A stretch of DNA of 10,684 nt, taken from NCBI GenBank assembly GCA_024653845.1, contig JANLHA010000052.1:1-10684 (forward strand), read 5' to 3'. Under the pieces are notes generated by a model. It had not been told where the DNA came from. It did not search any database and saw nothing but the letters and a program-made list of their open reading frames with translations. Positions within the stretch are counted from its first letter, which is position 1, and the number at the start of each line of letters is the position of its first letter. The DNA comes from Candidatus Omnitrophota bacterium. Its GTDB lineage: Bacteria > Omnitrophota > Gorgyraeia > Zapsychrales > JANLHA01. Both the position numbers and the translations under genes were made by a program. This document shows positions 1-10,683 of the stretch, piece after piece.

Positions 1-1752
1 ACGAGTGTTATGCATGGCATGGCGAATCATGTTGAGCAATGCTCCACCGATCAACGCAGGAAGAATAATAGGAAGCAAGAAAGCCAGTTCTTTGTATTGC
101 CATAGAACCAAAAAACCAAGAATAATAACCCGGGCCCTCAAGCCGATTTCTACCGGAGCTCTTCGATCAGAATTTGCATCAAAGAAATCAGAAATCGGAA
201 ACCCTGCAAGGTCAATGCAGGATTTAATTGTAAGGAATATAAAGATATAACTAAGAGCACCAATCTGCCATGTGATCGAAGAAGCAAGTAAAGTCCAAAT
301 TCCTCCCAATACAAATCCCATCACAGTCCACCAACGGATCGCACGTATTCCGGCTCGGCGGATTTTATGCTGCTCCGAAGTCTGAGGGTCGTGGCGTTTT
401 AAGAAGTCTGAACGCAAACTGGGGAACAATTCCCAAGGCAGAGTAAAAAAGAAAATAAATAATCGACCCAACCTCGTCTTGACATATCGGCCCAGTCCTA
501 AAGCTTGCAAGATCTTGACGGCCATGTTGTAAGTACTGTCGACCCTGAGCGCTCCACGGCGCACACCCCCTTTAGGATGCGCCTTCCCATCATGGACCGC
601 CTGAGCGCGGGCTTGTTTTTGTCGAAGATGTGTTTCTGCGATAACCCGATCCTCTGCCTCGACCAATTTCTCAAAGGAACGAGAGATATCTTTGATCACA
701 ATTCCCGCCGGATGATCATCGCAAGCAGCTACGTATCTGAACTGAAACCCATCATGACTTAAAAATCCCAAAGCCAATCGGAGGGTCTCAACAGCCTCAA
801 TCAGCAATGCATCCAGGTTATCCAGAATTTTTTCATAAGCCACAAACTGATGGCGGCCGAGGCGAGTCAGATACATTCCTACATCCCTAACTTCATTGGC
901 TTGAACTTCAAGAAGAGTACGACGGGCATCTCTGCGCCCCATTCCATCCTCTTCTAAACTATCAAGAAGACGGGTTAACTCGACAGGATCCATCAAATTC
1001 AAAAGATTGATCTGTGTCGTGAAAAGTGGTCTTTCGACATTCAGCTCTTTCGCTCTCCATTGCGGACCTTTGGAGATCTCATTGAGCAAAATCAGTAATC
1101 CAGAAATTTCTTGCCTAATGACCAAAGGAGTCAAGTCTTCGTTTTGTAACAATTTCAGCCGACGGCGAGTCTCTTCCAGGCGCTCACCTTGATCTTCAAG
1201 ATAAAATCGATAAATCTCTAAGAGCGTTCTTAACTGGCGGCCAACTTCTGGATAACTTTCTTCACCCTTATGTCTTTCAACGACCTGCCGCAAGGCCTTG
1301 GCCGACCAACTTCCCCTTTCTCGACGAAGATCTAACAATACCGGTAAAGGAACTGAAATTTTCCAATCCAAAAGTTCTCCTAAAGCTTCAACAAAATTTT
1401 GTAAGAAATACCTTGCGCCGCCTTTCACAAAATATTGGATATCACTTTCAATCAAGGAGATGCGCTCGTTTTCTTCTTTAAGCCCATACAGCCGAAGAAC
1501 AAAATGCAAGAATCTCAAATATGGTATGCCTGCCAAAAGATCCTTTGCATTTTGTTCGAAAATACGCGACCAATAAATACTGTGAAATGGCACGCCGTGA
1601 TTTTCAAAAGCATATCTGATCCGGGCATAGATCTCCCATTTATTGATCGTCTTGCGGACATCCTTCGGAACTCGACCATATTTGCTCAAGAAAAGACGAA
1701 CTTCCCGCTCTTTGTGTCGTCTAAGCGTCGGATCAGCTTGATCGAAGGATAG
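1..1752 (-). repeat. Repeat D2: helical domain plus membrane block, second copy (cut by window edge)
   Basis: Residues about 2978-3561. It carries the D signature (IYWSRIF, then PYLRFLHFVL at 3054 onward and LYGL), then charged helices. FVAYEKILD (Y3283) and DGFQFRY correspond to FVSYEEILD and QGFKFRW in D1. The membrane block repeats the PWEL...PQT motif (P3416, P3433), with the same 17-residue spacing as D1. Hydrophobic stretches lie at about 3408-3416, 3451-3470, 3475-3490 and 3519-3552. The frame continues past the window edge, so more of the protein follows. C3321 and C3489 are two of the four cysteines. Confidence 0.8.
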
Positions 1753-4700
1753 GACCTCTCGTTCACCAGAAACCGCAAGGCGGTTTTCGATGGCGATGGC
1801 GGTCATATCTGGCCGCAACCAGCTCATGACGACCGGCCGGCCATAACGTCGAAATACTCTGACCTTTTCAAGCATGACGCCGGGCGCCGTTTTCTCGCCG
1901 GCAATTTGCGAATAATCAATCCCGGCCTCAACCATGAGAGCACGTTCTTCGTGAAGATGGTTCGCACTTCGACGATCGTCGAGCACGGTGACCGTGTCAT
2001 CCCCCGGATATTGCAACCACACTTTCACGTGAGCGGGTTCATTGACAGGCGCATGGACAGGGCGAAGCTCAAGCCAAAGGTCCCGCGTGCCTTCACCGAC
2101 GGAAGATAACTTCAAGGCCACTTCGTCCCCATTCTCAAAACTGGCAGGCAAGGCATAAACTTGCGCCCCGGCAAATTGCGTAAGCCACAAATCGCCTCGC
2201 GGCCGTAAACGGGCGTGAAGCAGGCCTTCTGCCGGGAACTCATCCGAAAGGCCTTCTCGGTAAATTTTCATCAAATCTGAAAAAGTCCCGATGGGACGAA
2301 CGGTCACGTTCCGCTGCTTGATTCCCCGAGAGCCCTCTTCCTCCTTAATGAATAACCGTCGAGAATTTTTAGAGTCAACAGCCTCGGCTTCTTCTCCCAC
2401 CTTAACAAACATGACATCCACTTCTCTGACCCCATCTTCTCTCGTCGGGCGGACATGATAATGAGCCGCAGCTTTGCCATTCACCGGACCGAGGTCGGCT
2501 GAAAGGCCCGCGACTTTGAACTCGGAGTAAACTACGAGACGAGTTTCAGGATTGGTTGTTTTGACTAATGTCACCTCATGCGACTCGATTATTGGGGCAA
2601 GGCCTACAATAAAACGGCTCAAAGGATGTCTGGGTTCCCGCTTCGGAGCAAGTCCTAAAGTCAAAACTCCGTCAGAAAAAAATAAAAGGGCGATGATGTT
2701 ATAAATCAAGTGTGCCACGGCGTTGGCGATAAAAGCATTGCGCACGACGAGCCAAACCAAGATGGGCATCGATATTGAATACCCAATTGATAAAACACCC
2801 AACGAAAACAAAGCCGCGATCCCGGTTGCCGCAATGATGAAGATGTGCCCAGCCTCGCGCCACTTCTTCTGCCGCTCAGTCTGAGGCCCGTGCCAATTGA
2901 CGAACTCTTGGAAGAAGGCGGCCACCCACTCCCACGGGGTGAACGCCGCTAAAACACTGATCATCCAGTCGGGCATGGTCCACTGTGCACGCACCCGGCC
3001 AAGAGTGAAAATCCAGATCAAAGCTCGGCTCACGAGTCGCGAAACCCATCGCCAGAAATCGCAGGTCAAGGGCAAAGTATTTGTGGATGACGCTAATCGT
3101 GCGTGCGCTGCAGCCATGGCCTCATCCCATTGACGCTGGAATTGTCTTTCCTCGGTGGAGAAACCACTCAACACTTGGCTGACTTCTCTTCTGGCTCGCT
3201 GGCTCTGAACATTTTGCTGACGAGCATGTTCCAAATGCCAAGGCGCCTCCAAAACTTCGATTCCATTCCTAAAGCTGCGCCCTCCGTTATGCCAACGAAA
3301 TTTAAAACCTTGGTAAGTCAAAAGTCCGATGGCCTTCTTCAATTCTCTGGTCGATGTCAAAACAAAACCGTCTATGGCGTCGAGGATTTCTTCGTAACTC
3401 ACAAAACTTCCATTTGCTGTTTTTCCTAAAAGATAAAATGCGATCTCAAGCAATTCTTCCTGAAATTTATTCTCCAACGCTTCTTGAGCTTCGTCCTCCC
3501 TTCCAGAAAATGTTTCAATCCATTCGCGGATACGTTTTTCTAATTCTCTGGCCGTCATGATCTCCAACAAATTTTGTGCAGGAAGCAGTGGAGCGGTCCT
3601 TCTACTCGACGACCACTTTTTCTCTCTGATCATCATTCGTGCTCGAATGCTACGGGCTACTCTGGTAAAACTCAACGCTTCAACTTTAAAAGCCAGTCCT
3701 TGTTGAATATCATTTAAAATCCCTCGCAGCCGGGCCGCCTCCAAGGACACATCAGCATTGGTGACAGCCAATCTCAAGGAAGCCAAATCTCTCAAAGCAG
3801 TCCCCACATCTCTGGTCTTCAAATAATTTTGGTAAATCTGGATAAGGCGTGATCGCTGGGTATACAAAGCTCCGTCCCGTTCTCCTCGGATTCTTCGATG
3901 CAAATTTTGTCTGAGATGATTTTCTCGTGCCCCTGCGGTAGAACGCTGACGATAAGTTTTTAAATCATCCATTTCCTCAGACGTTGGTTGACGGACGACA
4001 TGCCCTAAGTAAGCATCCAAGGCACGGCCCAACTGATTCAATCGTTTGTCTTCGGAAGACACTAAAAATGTGGCTTCATTCTCTCGAATCCATTCCTGAG
4101 TCTGCTGCTCATTTAATCCGTACAAGTGCAAAACAAAATGCAGGAATCGCAAATAAGGGATTTTGCTCAAAATCAATTCTGCCGTTCCCTTAAAAATGAT
4201 CGACCAATACACATCCATAAAAGGCACATCGTGGGTTTCCAAAATCTGAATACGCGCATAAAGGCTGGCATGAGAGAACGCCCGAGCTACCGACATATCG
4301 GGAATAGGGCCATACAATTCCAAGAACAATGCCTCCCCTCTTTCTTCGTCCAGACGCTGGCGGATATCTTCCTCACTCATCGTTAACCAATCGACACGCA
4401 CGGACTCGCCCGACTCTAGGAATACCCGGCCCCGCGCCCTGACAAACGCGGGCACCACGGCCCGAACCTCGTCGGGAAGATCCGCATACACCAATCCGGT
4501 TTCGGCCTCAAACGCGCGAATCTGATGCAGCTCATCGGCTCCTCGTTTGTTCGGCGAACGGCGGCTTTCTTTCTTCCCAAACTCGATTTCCCGAATCGCG
4601 TGAGCCGGCTCCGTCGCTGGCGCAGCCGCAGGGAAAACAGAAGCCATCAAAATTTTTTCTTTTCTATCTTTTCTAGCAAACCGCACGATAACTTGATCCG

Positions 4701-7700
4701 CTGGGAGCCCTGCCTTTTCTTTGGCAGGTGAGCCGAGGCTTGATGGCAATCCATACAATCGAATTCCCGGTGCGAGGGTTACCATCATCGTCGATTCTGT
4801 CTCTTGTTGCTGCTCAATAAGATCAACGACCATATTCGCCGGAATTTCTTTCTGGCGACCGGCGAGGTAAAGGACCAATTCGTTTCTCTGCAAAATGGTT
4901 CGTGCTTCTTGAGGAATAGCGACTTGACCCTCAGCAGAGACAATAATCCGACGAACGTCCAAAGGCTCATGATTAATTGGCTTATCACCTCGATAAAATG
5001 AAAGGATGACGTTCTGTCCTTCGGATGGCGTGCCTATCTCGACAAATTCATAGACGACTTGAACCTCATCTCCAACTTCTCCCAAATCAGGATTGAGAGC
5101 ACTGATTGGCTTGCCAGGCATAATAAAGACACGCAATGTTGTTCGCTCACCCTGCACTCGTGGACGAAGAGTCAATCTTTCGAAGAATATCCATCGATCG
5201 GCATCCGGCTGGCTCTGCACAGCTCTTAGTTCTTCATCACCTTGAATCAACCGAGAGATAAAGCCAGAAACTTCGACAGGGACAAAGCCCCTCTCAGACG
5301 GGGAAAGGACGGTGTGAGACTCATCTGAAGTCGCCTCTTGGGGCCACTCTTCATGATCCAATATTTCATGAGCCAGCTGGGCCAGCCGACCGTCCGGGAT
5401 CAAACGAGCCAATGTGTATTTGATTATAGCGATTCCCTGATGATGAGCGCGTCGCAAAATAAAAGCTGCTTCCAGCTCGTTGGGAGCCTCCACCCAACCT
5501 TTACGTTGCGCCCCTGTGACCAATTTCCTACTGCCCTGATGCACGGCGGTTGAATAAAGATTATCTTGATCCTGCGATCCTCCCCAGCGCAGCATTTTTC
5601 GCCCCCCGGCGCTCACAGCATAATGCGTTGCTGAACTAGCTACCTCGGCCAAGAAAGCTCTTTCCTCTAAAGTCTCTACGCTAAAGCTATATCGCTGCTG
5701 ATCTAAGGAGTGACGAACCTCATGCTCTTCAATCATTTCAGCCACTTTGTTGACAATTCCTTCATCACTCAAGCCATAAAAATCTTGAGCAATTAAAAAT
5801 TTCTCTAATTCATAATAATCGAGAGAAGTCCACCGTCCTAAAACAGGCAACTGAGATAATAAAAATGGCGTTCTTACTTGATCAAGTTGTCTGCGGATAT
5901 AAGGCAGTTGCTCTTCTCGAATCACGCCAACAAAAACAACTGTGTGTTTGCCATCGTGCAGGCCAAGCACGCCAGGTGCAGGCAAATCGTCAATTCCGTC
6001 AAGATACAAAACATCAATCTTGGCTCCTTCAACGATTCTTTCTTTCTCTCTCACAACTTGGAAAGATTTCAGTTGCAACCGATCTCCCACCCAGTCGGAT
6101 TGGAACCCTATCAAAACATAAAGATTCCATAACAAAAGAAATTCATTAAGCGCACTATTGACTACATCATAATCGATTTTTCGCTCTCTATGAGCAGAGG
6201 GGTCTGATTGGGATTGCAAAACTCTGTTGCCTGACTCAAAAAACGCTCTCAATTTTTCTTCAAAAGAGGCATGAATTCTTCCAGCGATCATTAACAAATC
6301 AGATTGAATGACTTTATCTTGTTCCAAAGTACCCAAACTCGGGAAACGCTTTGCATAATGGGAAAGACCGTGACTCAAGAAAGCCTCAAATTTTTCTTGA
6401 GGAGTATCACTCAAATCTATCAAAACCAAAAGCGGCAAGAATGCATTGTCTGCGAGAGGGTTGCTTGCCATGGCATCCTTAGCCCGAGCGTAAACTCTAT
6501 TTTGTAGAGTTTCAAAAACGCGATTAACTTCTGTATTCCCATATATATCGCGCTGAAAATCACGACCAAAGAAAGAGTTACCTCGAAGACGATATTGCAG
6601 AGAAATTTTTACTAACCCTCTTGCTTGTTCGAATATATCCCAAGGAGCTTCGACTCCCATCCGTCGATCTTCCAACCACCGAAGGACTTCCGGTTCTTCG
6701 GCTTCGTTGTCAGAATGAGGACGGCCTTGCAAGGCACGGAATTCATGGATGATGGTGACGACGCGTTCGGCGAGGGATTGATGAGTGGCTTCCGCATTGC
6801 TGATCAAAATGGTTCTTTGTCCATCGATAACAATGATGGCGGTTCCCAAGAAGCCTGTAAACGGCCCGGCGCGCAGACGGCCGGCCCGGATTAACGCTTC
6901 TAACTCTTCGGCTTCTTTTTCTTCCCCGCGGCGGCGCAGATAAGCGGGAGCCAACTTTGCCTCGAGATAAGTGTGTGGCTGAAGAATACCAAAAGCCCCA
7001 ACATCAAAGTTCTCCATTGTGGCTCTGACTTTCTCCTCCGATGGCATAGGTTGACCTGGGACTCGACGGGCGGGATCATGCGGTTCCTTCTTCGCCAGAG
7101 ACTCGCTCACCTGGCGATCATCAAGCAAATCACGAGCCTGCTCTTTAATAACAATTTCTCTCCGAGGGAACGAAGCTCTGACGGTCGTTCGGAATCCTTC
7201 AACAACATCGGCGAAGTATTCTACCTTCCCACCATGAAGAAAAGCCAAAAACTGAGCCCATACGGCACCTACTTTTCGTCCGCCTTCTCTTTGATATCTA
7301 ACCACCGAACCGTTGTCGGCACGAGGCAAAGAATACACACACCATTCACCGTTCCCATTAAACCCTGTCCGTGAAAGATCGACACCGATTCCGTTATCAG
7401 AAATTTCAATGACCAACTCTTCTGGTGTCTCATAAATTCGTAAAAGAACAATTCCTGTTTTTTGAGCTGCCACATAAGCATCAAAGGCATTTTTAAGCAG
7501 CTCTTCCATAAACTTCGTGATGGAAGAGGCAATTGCTTCCCTTAAAAATTCTTCTCGTTGAGAATTTGCAAGTCCCGTCGAGAATATCCAAGGATTTGCT
7601 CTTTCATAACCGCCGATCATCTGGTGAGAAAGGATATGAAATCGTCGAGGATCTGAACCTCGAGGAGAACGGAACCAGCGAAGTCCAAGGCCTTGCAACA

Positions 7701-10683
7701 ATTCTGATCGCTTCTCCGCTCGGCCCTGCCGATTCATTAAATCATTGTGATCAAACTCAACGGAACGTTCAAAACGAGTCCTGCCGCCTTGCCGTTGTTC
7801 TTCTTCACTTAAAGGCCGATTGATCGTCCGGAAAACATCCACCACATGCATGCCACCTTCATGACTCTGGCCAGTGAACTCATGAAGAGCAATTTCAACT
7901 GGAGTCGGATCTCCATCTTGAGGGTTCCCATTCGTTGTAACGACAAAAATGCGTTGCTCCTGATCTTTAGGAGAACCTGTCGATAATCTCTTATAGAAAA
8001 ATCCATTGGCCCCCCAAAACACTTGATTATTTTCTCCATAATAAAGTTCCCCTGCATTCACACTCGCAACCAACTGCCCATAAAGGACAGAGTCATGTCT
8101 TCGCGTATAATCAGCCAGCTCGCGTACAAACTCAGGTTCTTCCAAGCTCTCCACTCGTCGGAAGCCACGAACACCCAAAACCTTACCATCCTCATCCTGT
8201 TCGACCAATCTTCTGAGTTCTTCAATAACATCGCCGGCCTGGTATCCCTCTCGTGGCCAGGCGGGATCATGCGGCTGTCGGAGCACAGGCTGCCTTGATG
8301 AGAGATAGGCTCCATCAATAGAAACTGTCTCCTTCAGTGGAGAATTAGGGTAAAAAGCACGAATTCCTGAAAACTGTCTTTCCGGCTGGACCAATTCAAC
8401 ATTCACGGCTTCAATGGGCAACAGAATGCGTGTTCGCGTGCGATAACCATATTCTGTTGCTGGAGCGTATTCCAAGTCCCCTCCGTGCAGACGCACCACA
8501 ATTTGCGACCACAGGACACCGATATGGGCTCCTCCATCTTTTTCTAATCGAGATGAAGGCAAATGATGAGGAACAAGTGTCCAGATTCCAACATCCCCAT
8601 ATCTTTTTGTGCGCTTGAAATCAAGGCCTATCCCGTCGTCGAGAATATCAACAAAAAGATATTTGCCATCTCGATGAATACGAACTAAAATCTTTCCTGG
8701 CCTTTCATCAGATATATAAGCATCAAAGGCATTTTTTATAAGCTCGTCCATCACCACCCAAGAAATTGTTTCAGGGGCAAGAAAATTTTTAGCTGCTCTT
8801 TTTGGGATGAGATCATATCCTCCTCTAAATAATTCCCAAATCGCAAAATGTTTTCTAATCACCTCAGCAGAAGGCTCAGTCAGCCATGACATTTTAAGAA
8901 TTTCAAAAAGGCGATTTCGCTTCTCAGCCCGTTTATTTCCGCTTGTCAAATCATCATCAGTGACATCCATTTCAGCTTCAAAAATCATCTGAGTATCGAT
9001 ACGATCAGAAGCTGGTAAATTGTGGGCAGCCCCTATCCATGGCGCATTTGTGAAAAAAGCAGCCCGGGAAATCCAACTGAGGAAAAGAAAAACTGCCCAG
9101 GCAAGACCTATAAAAAGTCCTTCTGCCATTTCCATTCCCAAACTCGTCGATCCCAGCGCGGCGGCCAAGACCACTCCACTCACCCATTTCGGGGAATGGA
9201 GGTCAATAGCATGCTGATGCGATGCTCCCTTCCTGGGAATTGCCTTCCCATTCCCTTCTTCAAATTTCATAAATCGTACAACTGACCGCGGAAGAGTGAT
9301 TCTCACCGTCGTGCGATAACCTTCTTCATTGGCCGGAAGATGCTCCAAGCTTCCTTCAAGGTCGGCGATAAGAAGCCTGGAGTACTCCACCGCAATATGT
9401 TTGCCACCCAAATGTAATCGCGGGGCTTGACCATGAAGATCCACAGGAAGAGAAACAACTCTCCAAATCCCATGAACATCGTATCCTGTCTTCTCAAAAT
9501 CAATCCCCCGCCCGTTATCCGAAATCGTTATTACCAAGTTTTTTCCCTCTTCAAAAATCCTCAAACGAATAGGACCCTCCATCAGCGAAGAGGCATACGA
9601 TTCAAATGCATTATCTAACAACTCTTTCATCACCGTTGCCAATGTCCAGGAAACACCATTGGTGGATTCCGAGGGAGAAAATGCTTGAGCGCTGTATTGC
9701 GCACTGACCTGATAAAAAGACCGCAAAAGGGGATTTTGATGAGGACGAGGCTCTCTCTTCCATTCCAAATAAAAAGCACGGGTGAGTTTTGTCAGTTGAT
9801 CAGAATAGTCACGGGCAACATCTTTGCCGCTTCCACTAAAGTGAACGACCATCTCCCACGGAGCTTCCTCTTCTGTGCCGACGGGTAAATGCGCTTGACG
9901 ACTGATCTCTCGGTGGGTCGCCCTCAAAATCTGTGCCGCAAGCCCGTGCTGTTGTCGGATTTCTCTTCCTAAAATCAAAGTTCTCAACATCTCAAATACC
10001 ATCTGAGGATTCTGCTGCATACGCTCTGCAATGGCCTGACTCAACGACCAAAGCGCCTGATCTGTCATTTCCAAATGATTCAATAATCGATCGATTGTCG
10101 ACCGACGGGCAATCCCTTCCGTAGAAAGAAGATATTTGTCTGCTGCCAACTGATTGTCTTCATGCAAACCTCGGTGAATTTCATGAATCAAAATTTCAGC
10201 CAAACTTGGGTCTCCTCGAGAAGGATCGACATTCGTCGAAATTAAATAAACTGTGGATCGCTGAAGACGTCCGGTAAAATTATTTGCACCGTAAAACACA
10301 TCGCTTTCGCCGTAATAAATATGTCCCCAATCAATCAACAGAGAAATCAGCTCGTAATGGAAATGATCATCGTTTTCTCTAATTTCTTGCAAAGCCCTAG
10401 CGATGGCAGGAGGCATCTCATTTGGATTAGCCGATAGGCGCTGGAATCCCCCCCCAACGACTGGGCGATCGCCGTTGTGGTAAGCAACTACGCTTTGGAA
10501 TTGTGCAACGACGTCATTTGCCGAATATCCTTCTCGCGGCCAGGCGGGGTCGATAGGATCGCCTGGTAATAACCGACGGAAGAAAACAAAAAACTTTTTT
10601 AACTTCAAGGCAAGACCTGTACTCATGGCAGGCAAAATATTAAAGAAAACCTCGACAAAAATCATAAAAACAAAAGAATAAAT
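1..10683 (-). CDS. Giant multidomain membrane protein with triplicated GHKL ATPase domains (internal fragment, at least 3561 aa)
   Basis: One frame is stop-free across the whole window and open at both edges, so the true start and stop lie outside it. Visible parts, in protein order, are: membrane segment (1-20); module A1 (43-180); GHKL ATPase domain 1 (342-468); membrane hairpin (500-544); GHKL domain 2 (635-759); module A2 (803-950); GHKL domain 3 (1048-1176); module A3 (1201-1332); peptidase-like domain with HEVRH (1654-1658); beta-rich stretch (1795-2090); repeat D1 with membrane segments (2100-2671); second beta-rich stretch (2672-2975); and repeat D2 with membrane segments (2978-3561). 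Internal repeats align in this frame, which argues against a chance ORF or a hidden frameshift. I count only four cysteines (C1115, C2541, C3321, C3489). No close family is recognised and the function is unknown. An envelope-anchored ATP-binding machine is the best inference. Giant genes of this sort are known from Omnitrophota, but the taxon is not proven here. Confidence 0.96.
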   Translation of the reverse strand, partial: MYSFVFMIFVEVFFNILPAMSTGLALKLKKFFVFFRRLLPGDPIDPAWPREGYSANDVVAQFQSVVAYHNGDRPVVGGGFQRLSANPNEMPPAIARALQEIRENDDHFHYELISLLIDWGHIYYGESDVFYGANNFTGRLQRSTVYLISTNVDPSRGDPSLAEILIHEIHRGLHEDNQLAADKYLLSTEGIARRSTIDRLLNHLEMTDQALWSLSQAIAERMQQNPQMVFEMLRTLILGREIRQQHGLAAQILRATHREISRQAHLPVGTEEEAPWEMVVHFSGSGKDVARDYSDQLTKLTRAFYLEWKREPRPHQNPLLRSFYQVSAQYSAQAFSPSESTNGVSWTLATVMKELLDNAFESYASSLMEGPIRLRIFEEGKNLVITISDNGRGIDFEKTGYDVHGIWRVVSLPVDLHGQAPRLHLGGKHIAVEYSRLLIADLEGSLEHLPANEEGYRTTVRITLPRSVVRFMKFEEGNGKAIPRKGASHQHAIDLHSPKWVSGVVLAAALGSTSLGMEMAEGLFIGLAWAVFLFLSWISRAAFFTNAPWIGAAHNLPASDRIDTQMIFEAEMDVTDDDLTSGNKRAEKRNRLFEILKMSWLTEPSAEVIRKHFAIWELFRGGYDLIPKRAAKNFLAPETISWVVMDELIKNAFDAYISDERPGKILVRIHRDGKYLFVDILDDGIGLDFKRTKRYGDVGIWTLVPHHLPSSRLEKDGGAHIGVLWSQIVVRLHGGDLEYAPATEYGYRTRTRILLPIEAVNVELVQPERQFSGIRAFYPNSPLKETVSIDGAYLSSRQPVLRQPHDPAWPREGYQAGDVIEELRRLVEQDEDGKVLGVRGFRRVESLEEPEFVRELADYTRRHDSVLYGQLVASVNAGELYYGENNQVFWGANGFFYKRLSTGSPKDQEQRIFVVTTNGNPQDGDPTPVEIALHEFTGQSHEGGMHVVDVFRTINRPLSEEEQRQGGRTRFERSVEFDHNDLMNRQGRAEKRSELLQGLGLRWFRSPRGSDPRRFHILSHQMIGGYERANPWIFSTGLANSQREEFLREAIASSITKFMEELLKNAFDAYVAAQKTGIVLLRIYETPEELVIEISDNGIGVDLSRTGFNGNGEWCVYSLPRADNGSVVRYQREGGRKVGAVWAQFLAFLHGGKVEYFADVVEGFRTTVRASFPRREIVIKEQARDLLDDRQVSESLAKKEPHDPARRVPGQPMPSEEKVRATMENFDVGAFGILQPHTYLEAKLAPAYLRRRGEEKEAEELEALIRAGRLRAGPFTGFLGTAIIVIDGQRTILISNAEATHQSLAERVVTIIHEFRALQGRPHSDNEAEEPEVLRWLEDRRMGVEAPWDIFEQARGLVKISLQYRLRGNSFFGRDFQRDIYGNTEVNRVFETLQNRVYARAKDAMASNPLADNAFLPLLVLIDLSDTPQEKFEAFLSHGLSHYAKRFPSLGTLEQDKVIQSDLLMIAGRIHASFEEKLRAFFESGNRVLQSQSDPSAHRERKIDYDVVNSALNEFLLLWNLYVLIGFQSDWVGDRLQLKSFQVVREKERIVEGAKIDVLYLDGIDDLPAPGVLGLHDGKHTVVFVGVIREEQLPYIRRQLDQVRTPFLLSQLPVLGRWTSLDYYELEKFLIAQDFYGLSDEGIVNKVAEMIEEHEVRHSLDQQRYSFSVETLEERAFLAEVASSATHYAVSAGGRKMLRWGGSQDQDNLYSTAVHQGSRKLVTGAQRKGWVEAPNELEAAFILRRAHHQGIAIIKYTLARLIPDGRLAQLAHEILDHEEWPQEATSDESHTVLSPSERGFVPVEVSGFISRLIQGDEELRAVQSQPDADRWIFFERLTLRPRVQGERTTLRVFIMPGKPISALNPDLGEVGDEVQVVYEFVEIGTPSEGQNVILSFYRGDKPINHEPLDVRRIIVSAEGQVAIPQEARTILQRNELVLYLAGRQKEIPANMVVDLIEQQQETESTMMVTLAPGIRLYGLPSSLGSPAKEKAGLPADQVIVRFARKDRKEKILMASVFPAAAPATEPAHAIREIEFGKKESRRSPNKRGADELHQIRAFEAETGLVYADLPDEVRAVVPAFVRARGRVFLESGESVRVDWLTMSEEDIRQRLDEERGEALFLELYGPIPDMSVARAFSHASLYARIQILETHDVPFMDVYWSIIFKGTAELILSKIPYLRFLHFVLHLYGLNEQQTQEWIRENEATFLVSSEDKRLNQLGRALDAYLGHVVRQPTSEEMDDLKTYRQRSTAGARENHLRQNLHRRIRGERDGALYTQRSRLIQIYQNYLKTRDVGTALRDLASLRLAVTNADVSLEAARLRGILNDIQQGLAFKVEALSFTRVARSIRARMMIREKKWSSSRRTAPLLPAQNLLEIMTARELEKRIREWIETFSGREDEAQEALENKFQEELLEIAFYLLGKTANGSFVSYEEILDAIDGFVLTSTRELKKAIGLLTYQGFKFRWHNGGRSFRNGIEVLEAPWHLEHARQQNVQSQRARREVSQVLSGFSTEERQFQRQWDEAMAAAHARLASSTNTLPLTCDFWRWVSRLVSRALIWIFTLGRVRAQWTMPDWMISVLAAFTPWEWVAAFFQEFVNWHGPQTERQKKWREAGHIFIIAATGIAALFSLGVLSIGYSISMPILVWLVVRNAFIANAVAHLIYNIIALLFFSDGVLTLGLAPKREPRHPLSRFIVGLAPIIESHEVTLVKTTNPETRLVVYSEFKVAGLSADLGPVNGKAAAHYHVRPTREDGVREVDVMFVKVGEEAEAVDSKNSRRLFIKEEEGSRGIKQRNVTVRPIGTFSDLMKIYREGLSDEFPAEGLLHARLRPRGDLWLTQFAGAQVYALPASFENGDEVALKLSSVGEGTRDLWLELRPVHAPVNEPAHVKVWLQYPGDDTVTVLDDRRSANHLHEERALMVEAGIDYSQIAGEKTAPGVMLEKVRVFRRYGRPVVMSWLRPDMTAIAIENRLAVSGEREVLSFDQADPTLRRHKEREVRLFLSKYGRVPKDVRKTINKWEIYARIRYAFENHGVPFHSIYWSRIFEQNAKDLLAGIPYLRFLHFVLRLYGLKEENERISLIESDIQYFVKGGARYFLQNFVEALGELLDWKISVPLPVLLDLRRERGSWSAKALRQVVERHKGEESYPEVGRQLRTLLEIYRFYLEDQGERLEETRRRLKLLQNEDLTPLVIRQEISGLLILLNEISKGPQWRAKELNVERPLFTTQINLLNLMDPVELTRLLDSLEEDGMGRRDARRTLLEVQANEVRDVGMYLTRLGRHQFVAYEKILDNLDALLIEAVETLRLALGFLSHDGFQFRYVAACDDHPAGIVIKDISRSFEKLVEAEDRVIAETHLRQKQARAQAVHDGKAHPKGGVRRGALRVDSTYNMAVKILQALGLGRYVKTRLGRLFIFFFTLPWELFPSLRSDFLKRHDPQTSEQHKIRRAGIRAIRWWTVMGFVLGGIWTLLASSITWQIGALSYIFIFLTIKSCIDLAGFPISDFFDANSDRRAPVEIGLRARVIILGFLVLWQYKELAFLLPIILPALIGGALLNMIRHAMHNTR
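1759..2670 (-). other. Beta-rich stretch before repeat D2
   Basis: Residues about 2672-2975. After the D1 membrane block come strand-rich segments (TRLVVYSEFKVAGL, REVDVMFVKVG, VYALPASFENGDEVALKL, AHVKVWLQYPG). They suggest two or three small beta-sandwich domains. The part from about 2792 (NVTVRP) through GDEV at 2852 to about 2950 corresponds to the beta stretch before D1. The first part (2690-2780) has no counterpart that I can see before D1. No catalytic motif is seen. The DNA is GC-richer here (34 of 60 bases at 1801-1860). Confidence 0.5.
2671..4386 (-). repeat. Repeat D1: helical domain plus C-terminal membrane block, first copy
   Basis: Residues about 2100-2671. A signature near the start (VYWSIIF, then PYLRFLHFVL at 2176 onward and LYGL) recurs in D2. 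It is followed by long charged helices and a FVSYEEILD motif (Y2430). The end is a membrane block: a hydrophobic helix near 2547-2560, a PWEW...PQT motif (P2583, P2600), and strong transmembrane stretches within 2614-2669 (for example FIIAATGIAALFSLGVL and PILVWLVV). C2541 is the only cysteine. The helical part resembles no family I recognise. Copies D1 and D2 are offset by 878 residues at the start, 853 in the middle and 833 at the end, so D1 is slightly the longer. Confidence 0.8.
4414..5301 (-). other. Beta-rich stretch before repeat D1, with a weak PDZ-like segment
   Basis: Residues about 1795-2090. It contains alternating hydrophobic strands (for example RTTLRVFIMPG and DEVQVVYEFVEIG) of the kind seen in Ig-like or other beta-sandwich domains. 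A GDEV motif at 1871 matches GDEV at 2852 before repeat D2, so the beta region belongs to the duplicated unit. About 1965-2010 includes GSPAKEKAGLPADQVIVRF (AGL at 1991-1993), which resembles the SPA..AGL..GD.I core of PDZ domains. The critical GD is PAD here, so this assignment is weak. An alanine/proline and basic linker follows (around 2015-2050). Confidence 0.5.
5302..6036 (-). other. Putative zinc-metallopeptidase-like domain (HEVRH)
   Basis: Residues about 1550-1794. Predicted strands (KIDVLYLDG, HTVVFVGVI) precede a helix carrying H1654-E-V-R-H1658, a canonical HExxH zinc-peptidase motif. A second acidic helix follows (ETLEERAFLAE), with E1670, E1673, E1674 and E1680 at 16 to 26 residues after the first histidine. 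This is about where gluzincins place their third ligand. The order of strand, HExxH helix and glutamate helix fits a zincin fold, but the motif is short and the family is unassigned. If active, it could process the giant protein itself or an external target; that is inference. The last part (1710-1794) has no recognised motif. Confidence 0.45.
6037..6687 (-). other. Unassigned, mainly helical stretch
   Basis: Residues about 1333-1549. No family is recognised. The sequence is largely amphipathic, with many charged, leucine and phenylalanine residues and short proline or asparagine breaks (for example around SNPLADNAF). There is no convincing membrane segment, glycine-rich loop or catalytic motif. 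The DNA here is AT-rich (17 of 60 bases G+C at 6121-6180). It joins module A3 to the peptidase-like domain. Confidence 0.5.
6688..7083 (-). repeat. Module A3, diverged third copy
   Basis: Residues about 1201-1332. It begins PHDPA like A2 (H1202), but the WPREGY part is replaced by RRVPGQP. A strand with QRTILISN leads into I-I-HEF (H1313, E1314), matching the strand and HE positions of A1 and A2. The second HE is lost: the next histidine is H1323 in an HSDN context, ten residues after H1313 rather than seven. The YYGE motif is also absent, with AGRLRAGPF in its place. No GHKL domain follows within the window. Its DNA is noticeably GC-richer than the flanks. It looks like a degenerate or re-specialised copy. 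Confidence 0.6.
7156..7542 (-). other. GHKL (HATPase_c-like) ATP-binding domain 3
   Basis: Residues about 1048-1176. The N-box is MEELLKNAFDAY, with E1061 and N1065. The G1 box is D1096-N-G-I-G1100. The third glycine motif is G1134-G1135-R-K-V-G, and the end strand is FRTTVRASFP (P1173). Spacings match the other two copies. One of the four cysteines of the window, C1115, lies between G1 and the third glycine motif. The N-box DNA shares a 21-base identical stretch with domain 2 (7474-7494 and 8716-8736), so these two copies look the most recently related, or their shared motif is strongly constrained. Confidence 0.9.
7834..8277 (-). repeat. Module A2 (DPAWPREGY / YYGE / HE-x5-HE), second copy
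   Basis: Residues about 803-950. It opens with P-H-DPAWPREGY (H805, D806-Y814), and nine of these residues are identical to A1. It then has YYGE at 881-884, a WGANGF motif, a strand with QRIFVVTTN, and H934-E935 plus H941-E942. The order of elements is the same as in A1. It links GHKL domain 2 to GHKL domain 3. A metal-binding role for the paired HE motifs is possible but not shown. No named family is recognised. Confidence 0.75.
8407..8781 (-). other. GHKL (HATPase_c-like) ATP-binding domain 2
   Basis: Residues about 635-759. The N-box is DELIKNAFDAY, with E647 and N651. The G1 box is D682-D-G-I-G686. The third glycine motif is G717-G718-A-H-I-G, and the domain ends at RTRTRILLP (P756). Motif spacings (N to D 31 residues; glycine motif to final proline 39) equal those of domains 1 and 3. 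A lead-in at about 575-634 carries RAEKR (585-589) followed by a tryptophan and a GGYD motif. The same lead-in precedes domain 3 (RAEKR at 988-992, GGYE), so the duplicated unit includes it. Unlike domains 1 and 3, no A module stands directly before this one; the membrane hairpin occupies that place. Confidence 0.9.
9052..9186 (-). other. Membrane hairpin between GHKL domains 1 and 2
   Basis: Residues 500-544 hold two hydrophobic stretches. The first is short and alanine/glycine-rich (VSGVVLAAALGSTSLGM). The second is stronger (GLFIGLAWAVFLFLSWI). They are separated by a short acidic turn (EMAEG). Two passes would put GHKL domains 1 and 2 on the same side of the membrane. If only the second stretch crosses, the two domains would be on opposite sides. 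The neighbouring charged stretches (residues 466-499 and 545-600) show no motif beyond the RAEKR lead-in of domain 2. Confidence 0.7.
9280..9660 (-). other. GHKL (HATPase_c-like) ATP-binding domain 1
   Basis: Residues about 342-468. The N-box is ELLDNAFES, with E354 (general base position) and N358 (Mg-coordinating position). The G1 box is D389-N-G-R-G393 (DxGxG). A third glycine motif, G426-G427-K-H-I, is followed by a helix and a glycine turn. The domain ends in a strand, GYRTTVRITLP (P465), typical of the end of the Bergerat fold. GHKL families include histidine kinases, Hsp90, MutL and topoisomerase VI subunit B. I see no DHp helix, Hsp90 middle domain or MutL partner, so the subfamily is unassigned. 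All key ATP-site residues are present, so ATP binding is likely. Confidence 0.9.
9661..10143 (-). other. Helical linker between module A1 and GHKL domain 1
   Basis: Residues about 181-341 are rich in charged and leucine residues and look mostly helical. There is no recognisable catalytic motif. The last part (about 290-325, around LTRAFYLEWKREPRP) loosely resembles the lead-in of the other two GHKL domains, where an RAEKR motif is followed by leucines, a tryptophan and a proline. It may therefore be a diverged copy of that lead-in. No histidine-kinase phosphoacceptor helix is evident. Confidence 0.5.
10144..10557 (-). repeat. Module A1 (DPAWPREGY / YYGE / HE-x5-HE), first copy
   Basis: Residues about 43-180. 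The module opens with D45-Y53 (DPAWPREGY), which is identical in A2. It continues with a helical stretch, then Y123-E126 (YYGE) and a following GAN motif. It ends in a predicted beta strand leading to H167-E168 and H174-E175. Spacings are close to those of A2: Y53 to Y123 is 70 residues (67 in A2), and the two HE pairs are 7 residues apart in both. The HE-x5-HE pattern recalls metal-binding or zincin-like helices, but it is not canonical HExxH, so enzymatic activity is unproven. I do not recognise a named family. A1 precedes GHKL domain 1, just as A2 precedes GHKL domain 3. Confidence 0.75.
10624..10683 (-). other. Hydrophobic membrane segment at window edge
   Basis: Residues 1-20 are almost entirely hydrophobic (IYSFVFMIFVEVFFNILPAM). 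They are followed by a basic stretch (KLKKFFVFFRR), as expected for a transmembrane helix with positive residues on the cytoplasmic side. The segment is cut by the window edge. D2 also ends in such membrane segments, so this may be the end of an upstream membrane block like those closing D1 and D2. Confidence 0.7.

Follow-up and report, generated by a model that had tools for sequence, protein, structure and literature searches.

A contig that is covered from one end to the other by a single open frame raises two questions, namely, whether this frame is a gene at all and, if so, what kind of protein it encodes a part of. The window, i.e. the whole stretch of 10,684 bp analyzed here, is the entire contig C40 of a fragmented assembly (2.07 Mb in 395 contigs, 87% complete), so that the open ends of the frame are also assembly cuts. 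As stated in the original prediction, the minus-strand frame 1..10683 comprises 3561 codons without a single stop and is open at both ends (ORF listing), and there is no second gene within the 10.7 kb, the longest other frame being just 156 aa. The remaining five frames contain between 93 and 219 stops each, and in 200 order-1 Markov sequences of similar composition, the longest frame has a mean length of 182 codons and never exceeds 328.

The composition and divergence of the frame are those of a protein-coding gene. The G+C content at codon positions 1, 2 and 3 is 0.58, 0.40 and 0.44, respectively. When the window is compared with a paralogous module on another contig of the same genome, C335 (46% amino acid identity; 712 aligned codons), the fractions of differences at the three positions are 0.421, 0.337 and 0.657, and 99 of the 143 fourfold sites are changed; the least divergence at position 2, the greatest at position 3 and the numerous changes at fourfold sites imply purifying selection on the protein sequence. 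The window frame is a real coding sequence under selection, and chance or artefact as the cause of the open frame is ruled out by the stop counts, the Markov control and the codon-position divergence; an altered genetic code was rejected as well because mutL on contig C188 of this genome ends at its own stop. The assembly is fragmented (395 contigs), and a related frame on contig C186 contains one in-frame stop, as could be expected of an assembly artefact or a decayed gene, but this explanation is hardly credible in the face of 3561 codons without a stop, the strong third-position divergence and the comparable giants in other assemblies. The features of the window are the following.

1..10683, minus strand: inner part (3561 codons) of a giant coding frame, with neither a start nor a stop identified (ORF, Markov control, codon-position test)
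10132..10557, minus strand: domain A copy 1, residues 43-184, with the HE-type motif HEIHRGLHED (profile match, motif; recurs on contig C115)
9277..9651, minus strand: GHKL ATPase domain 1, residues 345-469, with ELLDNAF and DNGRG (PF02518, profile, alignment; moderate-confidence part of the structure model)
9049..9189, minus strand: hydrophobic stretch separating GHKL 1 from GHKL 2, approximately residues 499-545, that could be a membrane hairpin (hydropathy; hairpin by eye)
8404..8757, minus strand: GHKL ATPase domain 2, residues 643-760, with ELIKNAF and DDGIG (PF02518 in three stretches, profile, alignment)
7828..8274, minus strand: domain A copy 2, residues 804-952, with HEFTGQSHEG (profile, motif)
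7153..7527, minus strand: GHKL ATPase domain 3, residues 1053-1177, with ELLKNAF and DNGIG (PF02518, PF13581, profile, alignment)
6715..6747, minus strand: HE-type motif HEFRALQGRPH, residues 1313-1323 (motif alone)
5710..5724, minus strand: HExxH motif HEVRH, residues 1654-1658, a possible zinc peptidase site (motif; no Pfam peptidase match)
2614..5118, minus strand: module R copy 1, residues 1856-2690 (self-comparison, R profile)
2659..3033, minus strand: membrane submodule of R copy 1, residues 2551-2675 (profile, hydropathy)
1..2613, minus strand: module R copy 2, residues 2691-3561 (self-comparison, R profile)
4..549, minus strand: membrane submodule of R copy 2, residues 3379-3560 (profile, hydropathy)

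The only Pfam families found above the cut-offs in the window are HATPase_c (three stretches), HATPase_c_2 and HATPase_c_3. Pfam detects in it no adhesin, carbohydrate-active, NRPS or PKS families, and no condensation, adenylation or ketosynthase domains, which agrees with the earlier description of repeated GHKL ATPases and membrane blocks that fit neither an adhesin nor a synthetase. In the alignment, all three GHKL domains retain the N box, as ELLDNAF, ELIKNAF or ELLKNAF, and the DxGxG motif of the G1 box. A profile of nine GHKL sequences including the window copies retrieves numerous histidine kinases of solved structure (best E 2e-17). Thus, the window shares with sensor histidine kinases and other GHKL kinases (WalK/YycG, CheA, pyruvate dehydrogenase kinase) the GHKL domain, by sequence and weakly by model; unlike the sensor histidine kinases, it carries three GHKL copies in one chain and no match to the HisKA family (Pfam, E up to 1). 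The structure model of residues 30-500 has a mean pLDDT of 51 and a pTM of 0.36; the pLDDT reaches 70-86 in parts of domain A and GHKL 1 and is mostly below 50 in the long helices before GHKL 1. A Foldseek search with this model yields one match with E <0.001, pyruvate dehydrogenase kinase (9e-4), followed by histidine kinases, all with TM-scores of at most 0.5; given the poor model and these scores, Foldseek supports the GHKL part weakly. Domain A precedes GHKL 1 and GHKL 3 and is detected again on C115 by profile search; the HE-type domains of the window have no Pfam peptidase match. Searches against solved structures with residues 1252-1855 and with the whole window protein retrieved nothing.

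GHKL similarity alone is no marker of giants. The N-terminal 1250 residues of the window protein have matches in 17 of the 285 genomes of the phylum, own genome included, and among the 16 others, the match lies in a frame of at least 2500 aa in six and in a frame of less than 800 aa in 10, the latter being probably ordinary histidine kinases. In a set of 5.8 billion proteins, in which the candidates sharing most words were scored, the whole window protein found only itself; among such word-sharing candidates, there was no hit for a 616-residue piece that spans GHKL 2 and 3, and the one addition from a search by region was a protein of 2011 aa, encoded on a contig as long as C335 (6033 bp). No relative emerged from the first search of the window protein against a collection of genome contigs. 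A reading of the locus as a defence system was discarded, PADLOC giving no match at E up to 0.1. By sequence, the window appears to be poorly conserved and to hold few annotated domains, like the giant ORFs of Omnitrophota.

The part of the window that does trace giant frames is module R. This module, about 840 residues long, occurs in the window in two tandem copies; the last part of each copy is a membrane submodule, which has two hydrophobic segments in copy 1 and four in copy 2, and an H...N pattern in this submodule is visible in most of the 11 aligned copies. The R profile has matches in seven of the 81 genomes of the order, own genome included. The 11 matches outside the own genome (six of 80 genomes) all fall within frames of at least 2811 aa (range 2811 to 22,400); 10 of these involve the membrane end, the exception being G013:C23, where an earlier part of the module is matched. 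Two weak hits of the R alignment to solved structures (E 0.0087 and 0.91) were taken as chance.

The original prediction called for extending the frame into the flanks. No contig end of the genome overlaps the ends of C40 (matches of less than about 20 bases would escape), and direct extension therefore failed; what could be recovered are related pieces on other contigs, one with a glycosidase-like domain. Five further contigs carry related or connected frames, namely, C186, C335, C115 and C188, which came from similarity searches within the genome, and C318, which came from the comparison of contig ends; R modules are present on C40, C335, C115 and C188. C335 (2010 aa) and C115 (2734 aa) are each a single end-to-end frame and share an exact 43 bp overlap that joins them in frame into 4,731 aa. 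C40 breaks off shortly after the last helix of R copy 2, and the start of C335 corresponds to a point some 87 residues further along, in what would be the next R copy; this module register, judged by the spacing inside C40 and not by an overlap, suggests that C335 follows C40. C188 contains the end of an R-module frame (541 aa; TAG at 1624-1626), 8 bp away from the stop of mutL on the other strand (1635-1637); mutL is followed by a mutS-like frame (named by eye). The single-sequence match between the window and C188 is no stronger than E 5e-4. With similarity and module register, in place of contig overlap, linking C40 to C335, C115, C188 and mutL, the window most likely belongs to a gene that ends on C188 beside mutL. 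No further overlaps were detected at the ends of C318 and C188.

Residues 442-481 of the C188 frame, near the giant frame end, give a weak match, below the cut-off, to a transposase-type helix-turn-helix.

The mutL address recurs in relatives. Searching 54 related genomes with the C188 MutL at E up to 1e-60 yields homologues in 36, own genome included, and the mutL side was examined in 19 of these, mostly the best-scoring ones (20 stretches). Seventeen genomes are testable, the 3' side being just 81 bases in G047 and 480 in G002. A convergent frame of at least 2000 aa lies beside mutL in 11 of the 17 (G003, G009, G010, G013, G015, G022, G029, G035, G038, G040 and G051). In G019 (1463 aa) and G025 (993 aa), the mutL-side frame is cut by the contig end, and in G036 an N run lies between adjoining frames of 1900 and 1155 aa. 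The mutL side of G053, G031 and G017 lacks a giant frame, with no frame longer than 1031 aa. The distance between the giant frame end and mutL ranges from 13 bp (G038) to 6.3 kb (G040), so that ‘beside’ covers cases with genes between. In G022, the giant frame reaches the very edge of the examined stretch. G007, found via its own match, has frames of 4429 and 5134 aa that meet at an N run and are followed by mutL; overall, giant frames are broken at or near N runs in G007, G022 and G036.

A second count comes from named loci, taken as the best 80 of a larger number in a MutL alignment search. Among the loci whose 3' flank extends for 7.5 kb or more, a convergent frame of 1200 aa or longer accompanies mutL in 16 of the 25 near-ranked ones (14 of 23 for those labelled Omnitrophota) and in none of the 24 distant controls; short flanks excluded 19 of the 44 near loci and 12 of the 36 distant controls. 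The control count refers to convergent frames only, and two controls have long frames on the same strand (L169, 1817 aa; L188, 1075 aa). The named loci overlap the genomes of the first count, so the two counts are not independent. The MutL loci of relatives are mostly in Candidatus Omnitrophota records, with G034 and G038 labelled ‘bacterium’ and G041 Elusimicrobia; the Omnitrophota records include G003 (JAKLFA010000005) of the same family, and G007 (JAHFGK010000001) and G009 (JAJDCB010000011) of the same order.

The frame G009:C3:2-134569 is stop-free over at least 44,856 aa (134.6 kb), open at the contig start, and ends 0.9 kb before mutL; G003:C5:2-100150 is stop-free over at least 33,383 codons and is also open at the contig start. 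With such frames, of at least 44,856 aa, in the same order and in records mostly of Candidatus Omnitrophota, the assignment of the window to the Omnitrophota class of giants holds, and the window is very probably part of an Omnitrophota giant gene, even if its single frame, cut by the contig ends, extends over 10.7 kb as compared with the 20 kb size mark for giant ORFs of this phylum. These long frames also bear on the notion that one long frame yields several proteins from internal starts. The window contains 57 in-frame ATG codons and one Shine-Dalgarno-like in-frame start, at residue 3248, but this is the single such site among the ATG and GTG codons in 3561 codons, in a phylum that may not use that signal, and the relatives are stop-free over 33,383 and 44,856 codons, which makes internal starts a very improbable explanation.

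Giant genes in Omnitrophota are already known. ORFs longer than 20 kb occur in 77 of 116 Velamenicoccia as well as in other classes (Seymour et al. 2023, PMC10066038). For one protein of 39,678 aa, from Velamenicoccus archaeovorus, 42 helices are predicted, and the peptides of a giant ORF increased 3-fold in attached Velamenicoccus cells; the foremost proposal in print is that the giants serve to attach to other cells and digest them (PMC10066038, accessible part). According to the same accessible part, adhesins are rarer in some Omnitrophota classes, so that adhesin or carbohydrate domains are not required for an Omnitrophota giant ORF. Other accessible texts mention giant proteins of up to 85,800 aa (PMC12057145) and proteins of more than 40,000 residues, with processing into smaller proteins suggested (PMC13104272); the accessible part of PMC13153191 has no mention of giant genes. 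The window resembles the giant ORFs of PMC10066038 in phylum, stop-free length, predicted membrane helices, the paucity of domains and poor conservation. It differs in its tandem GHKL ATPases, the main text of PMC10066038 containing neither ‘GHKL’ nor ‘histidine kinase’, and the linkage of the giants to mutL is absent from the accessible part of that paper. GHKL domains or mutL linkage in Omnitrophota giants were not found in the searchable literature and might be in print elsewhere.

Domain content is best seen in the longest relatives. Among the giant frames examined, the GHKL profile detects copies in those of G003, G009 and G022. The G003 giant, scanned with Pfam in ten pieces that cover it completely save for a few codons at the seams, contains in one frame the domains of more than a dozen enzymes: CoaE (dephospho-CoA kinase), ROK, AIR-synthase-like, deaminase, CofD, VTC, sugar transferase, protein kinase, GNAT, methyltransferase, PPDK, PALP, HIT and glutamate dehydrogenase, along with Tse3-like muramidase and NAGPA domains. 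Several of the catalytic motifs look intact by eye, which is no test of activity. In the G009 giant, of which six pieces were scanned (19,698 of the 44,856 residues), GHKL (twice), glutamate dehydrogenase, HEAT and TPR repeats, Mpv17 and His_Phos_1 are above the cut-off. Such a mixture would be expected of a polyprotein, i.e. a giant product from which many proteins, with GHKL enzymes and membrane pieces as separate ones among them, are released by cleavage, possibly through the HExxH-type domains that it contains. The very mixed enzyme domains in the single G003 frame, HEVRH and the other HE motifs in the window and the processing suggested for such proteins in the accessible part of PMC13104272 all point this way, but the HE domains lack a Pfam peptidase match, and we consider the polyprotein explanation unlikely.

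The genome also contains a longer run of joined frames, which may or may not be part of the same gene as the window. C318 (22,392 bp) is one end-to-end frame of 7464 aa that continues, via a 39 bp end overlap in frame, into C186, for a total of 13,138 codons (39.4 kb) up to an in-frame TAA. This TAA, at 1075-1077 of C186, comes after 5687 codons of that contig, and the frame then resumes for 358 codons to the contig end, with a PrmA-type Pfam match at residues 255-306 of the resumed piece. A by-eye reading, in which the TAA splits a methyltransferase, was dropped given that the match lies at these residues after the TAA. Relatives of C318-C186 are on contigs other than the mutL contig in G033, G042, G029, G040 and others, and on the same contig as mutL in G028; matches of C318-C186 to giants on the mutL side were also obtained for G035 (E 3e-99) and G003 (E 5e-13), and C186 matches the one of G009 (E 6e-7). 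The glycosidase-like domain is a GH2-type TIM-barrel-like stretch at 13729-14970 of C318, 35-40% identical to domains in three other genomes, where it sits in frames of 12,189, 26,531 and 30,644 aa. These three relatives match Glyco_hydro_2_C. Taken by itself, the C318 copy has no Pfam match, and a profile built from the four copies together finds solved GH2 enzymes (best E 3e-10).

The GH2-type domain on C318, the Tse3-like muramidase and NAGPA domains in G003, and the rise of giant-protein peptides in attached cells (PMC10066038, accessible part) would all suit a secreted or surface-exposed weapon or coat, a chain located outside the cell whose domains act upon the walls of prey, which is the proposal made for Velamenicoccus. 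Such a location is at odds with the GHKL domains, which require ATP, scarce outside the cell, with the lack of carbohydrate or adhesin domains in the window by Pfam, and with the CoaE, glutamate dehydrogenase, PPDK and similar cytosolic-enzyme domains in relatives; an outside weapon seems improbable, about as much so as the polyprotein.

The explanation that fits best overall, and that we hold with modest confidence, is that the window is an internal segment of a gene for a giant multidomain membrane protein. The whole chain would be produced as a single polypeptide, with hairpins lacing it onto the cell membrane and most of the soluble modules staying in the cytoplasm; there, the GHKL domains would bind ATP and might work as ATP-driven switches or clamps. 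The topology of the window was derived from crude hydropathy and a charge count. Hydropathy alone gives eight hydrophobic segments at the 1.6 threshold; a separate count gives six hydrophobic clusters, four of which are single stretches, one has two segments and one has four. The linker between GHKL 1 and 2 is hydrophobic at 515-545, or has one helix at 520-538, depending on the analysis. The hairpin 2614-2669 has four and three K/R residues in its flanks and one in the loop, and the positive flanks with a nearly uncharged loop fit both ends being inside. If most of the hairpins are of this kind, the soluble modules would be cytoplasmic, where GHKL would find ATP. Four of the six clusters are, however, single stretches, and real single helices would flip sides, which argues against one-sided lacing. 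So do the wall-active domains elsewhere, which would need the outside whereas GHKL and metabolic domains need ATP, so that no single side suits every domain. The membrane-laced, ATP-switch mechanism is thus tentative. The whole protein could serve the envelope and the cell-contact machinery proposed for attaching to and digesting other cells, a role in cell contact or predation that we deem neither probable nor improbable.

More doubtful still than an outside weapon or a polyprotein is a further possibility, namely, that in a subset of Omnitrophota, cytosolic and envelope enzymes are fused into a membrane-laced chain of more than 30,000 residues encoded beside mutL, with GHKL as ATP switches, which would act as an intracellular assembly line or scaffold. 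If true, the giants would be an intracellular scaffold on the membrane, beyond an outside weapon. Poor conservation and frequent fragmentation have hampered work on the role of the giants. The address convergent to mutL, conserved in many genomes of the order, the marker membrane module and the ATP-site motifs now render them findable and testable, and complete copies can be retrieved, so that the membrane side and the separate domains become addressable.

Another group of giants provides a comparison. West-Roberts et al. reportedly described, in 2023, giant genes of Omnitrophota encoding up to about 85,800 aa, with membrane regions, for which divergent SecA DEAD domains are said to be a hallmark; this preprint is cited by both PMC12057145 and PMC13104272. 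Pfam detects no SecA DEAD domain in the window; elsewhere in the own genome (G000), C27 begins with a partial SecA match above the cut-off and C83 has one below it, neither on the giant contigs examined. One relative does contain the domain: in G040, SecA_DEAD is above the cut-off at C117:38118-38621, inside a 6471-aa frame. On C21 of the same genome, a single stop separates two consecutive stretches, of 5755 and 2843 aa, that are in the same reading frame.
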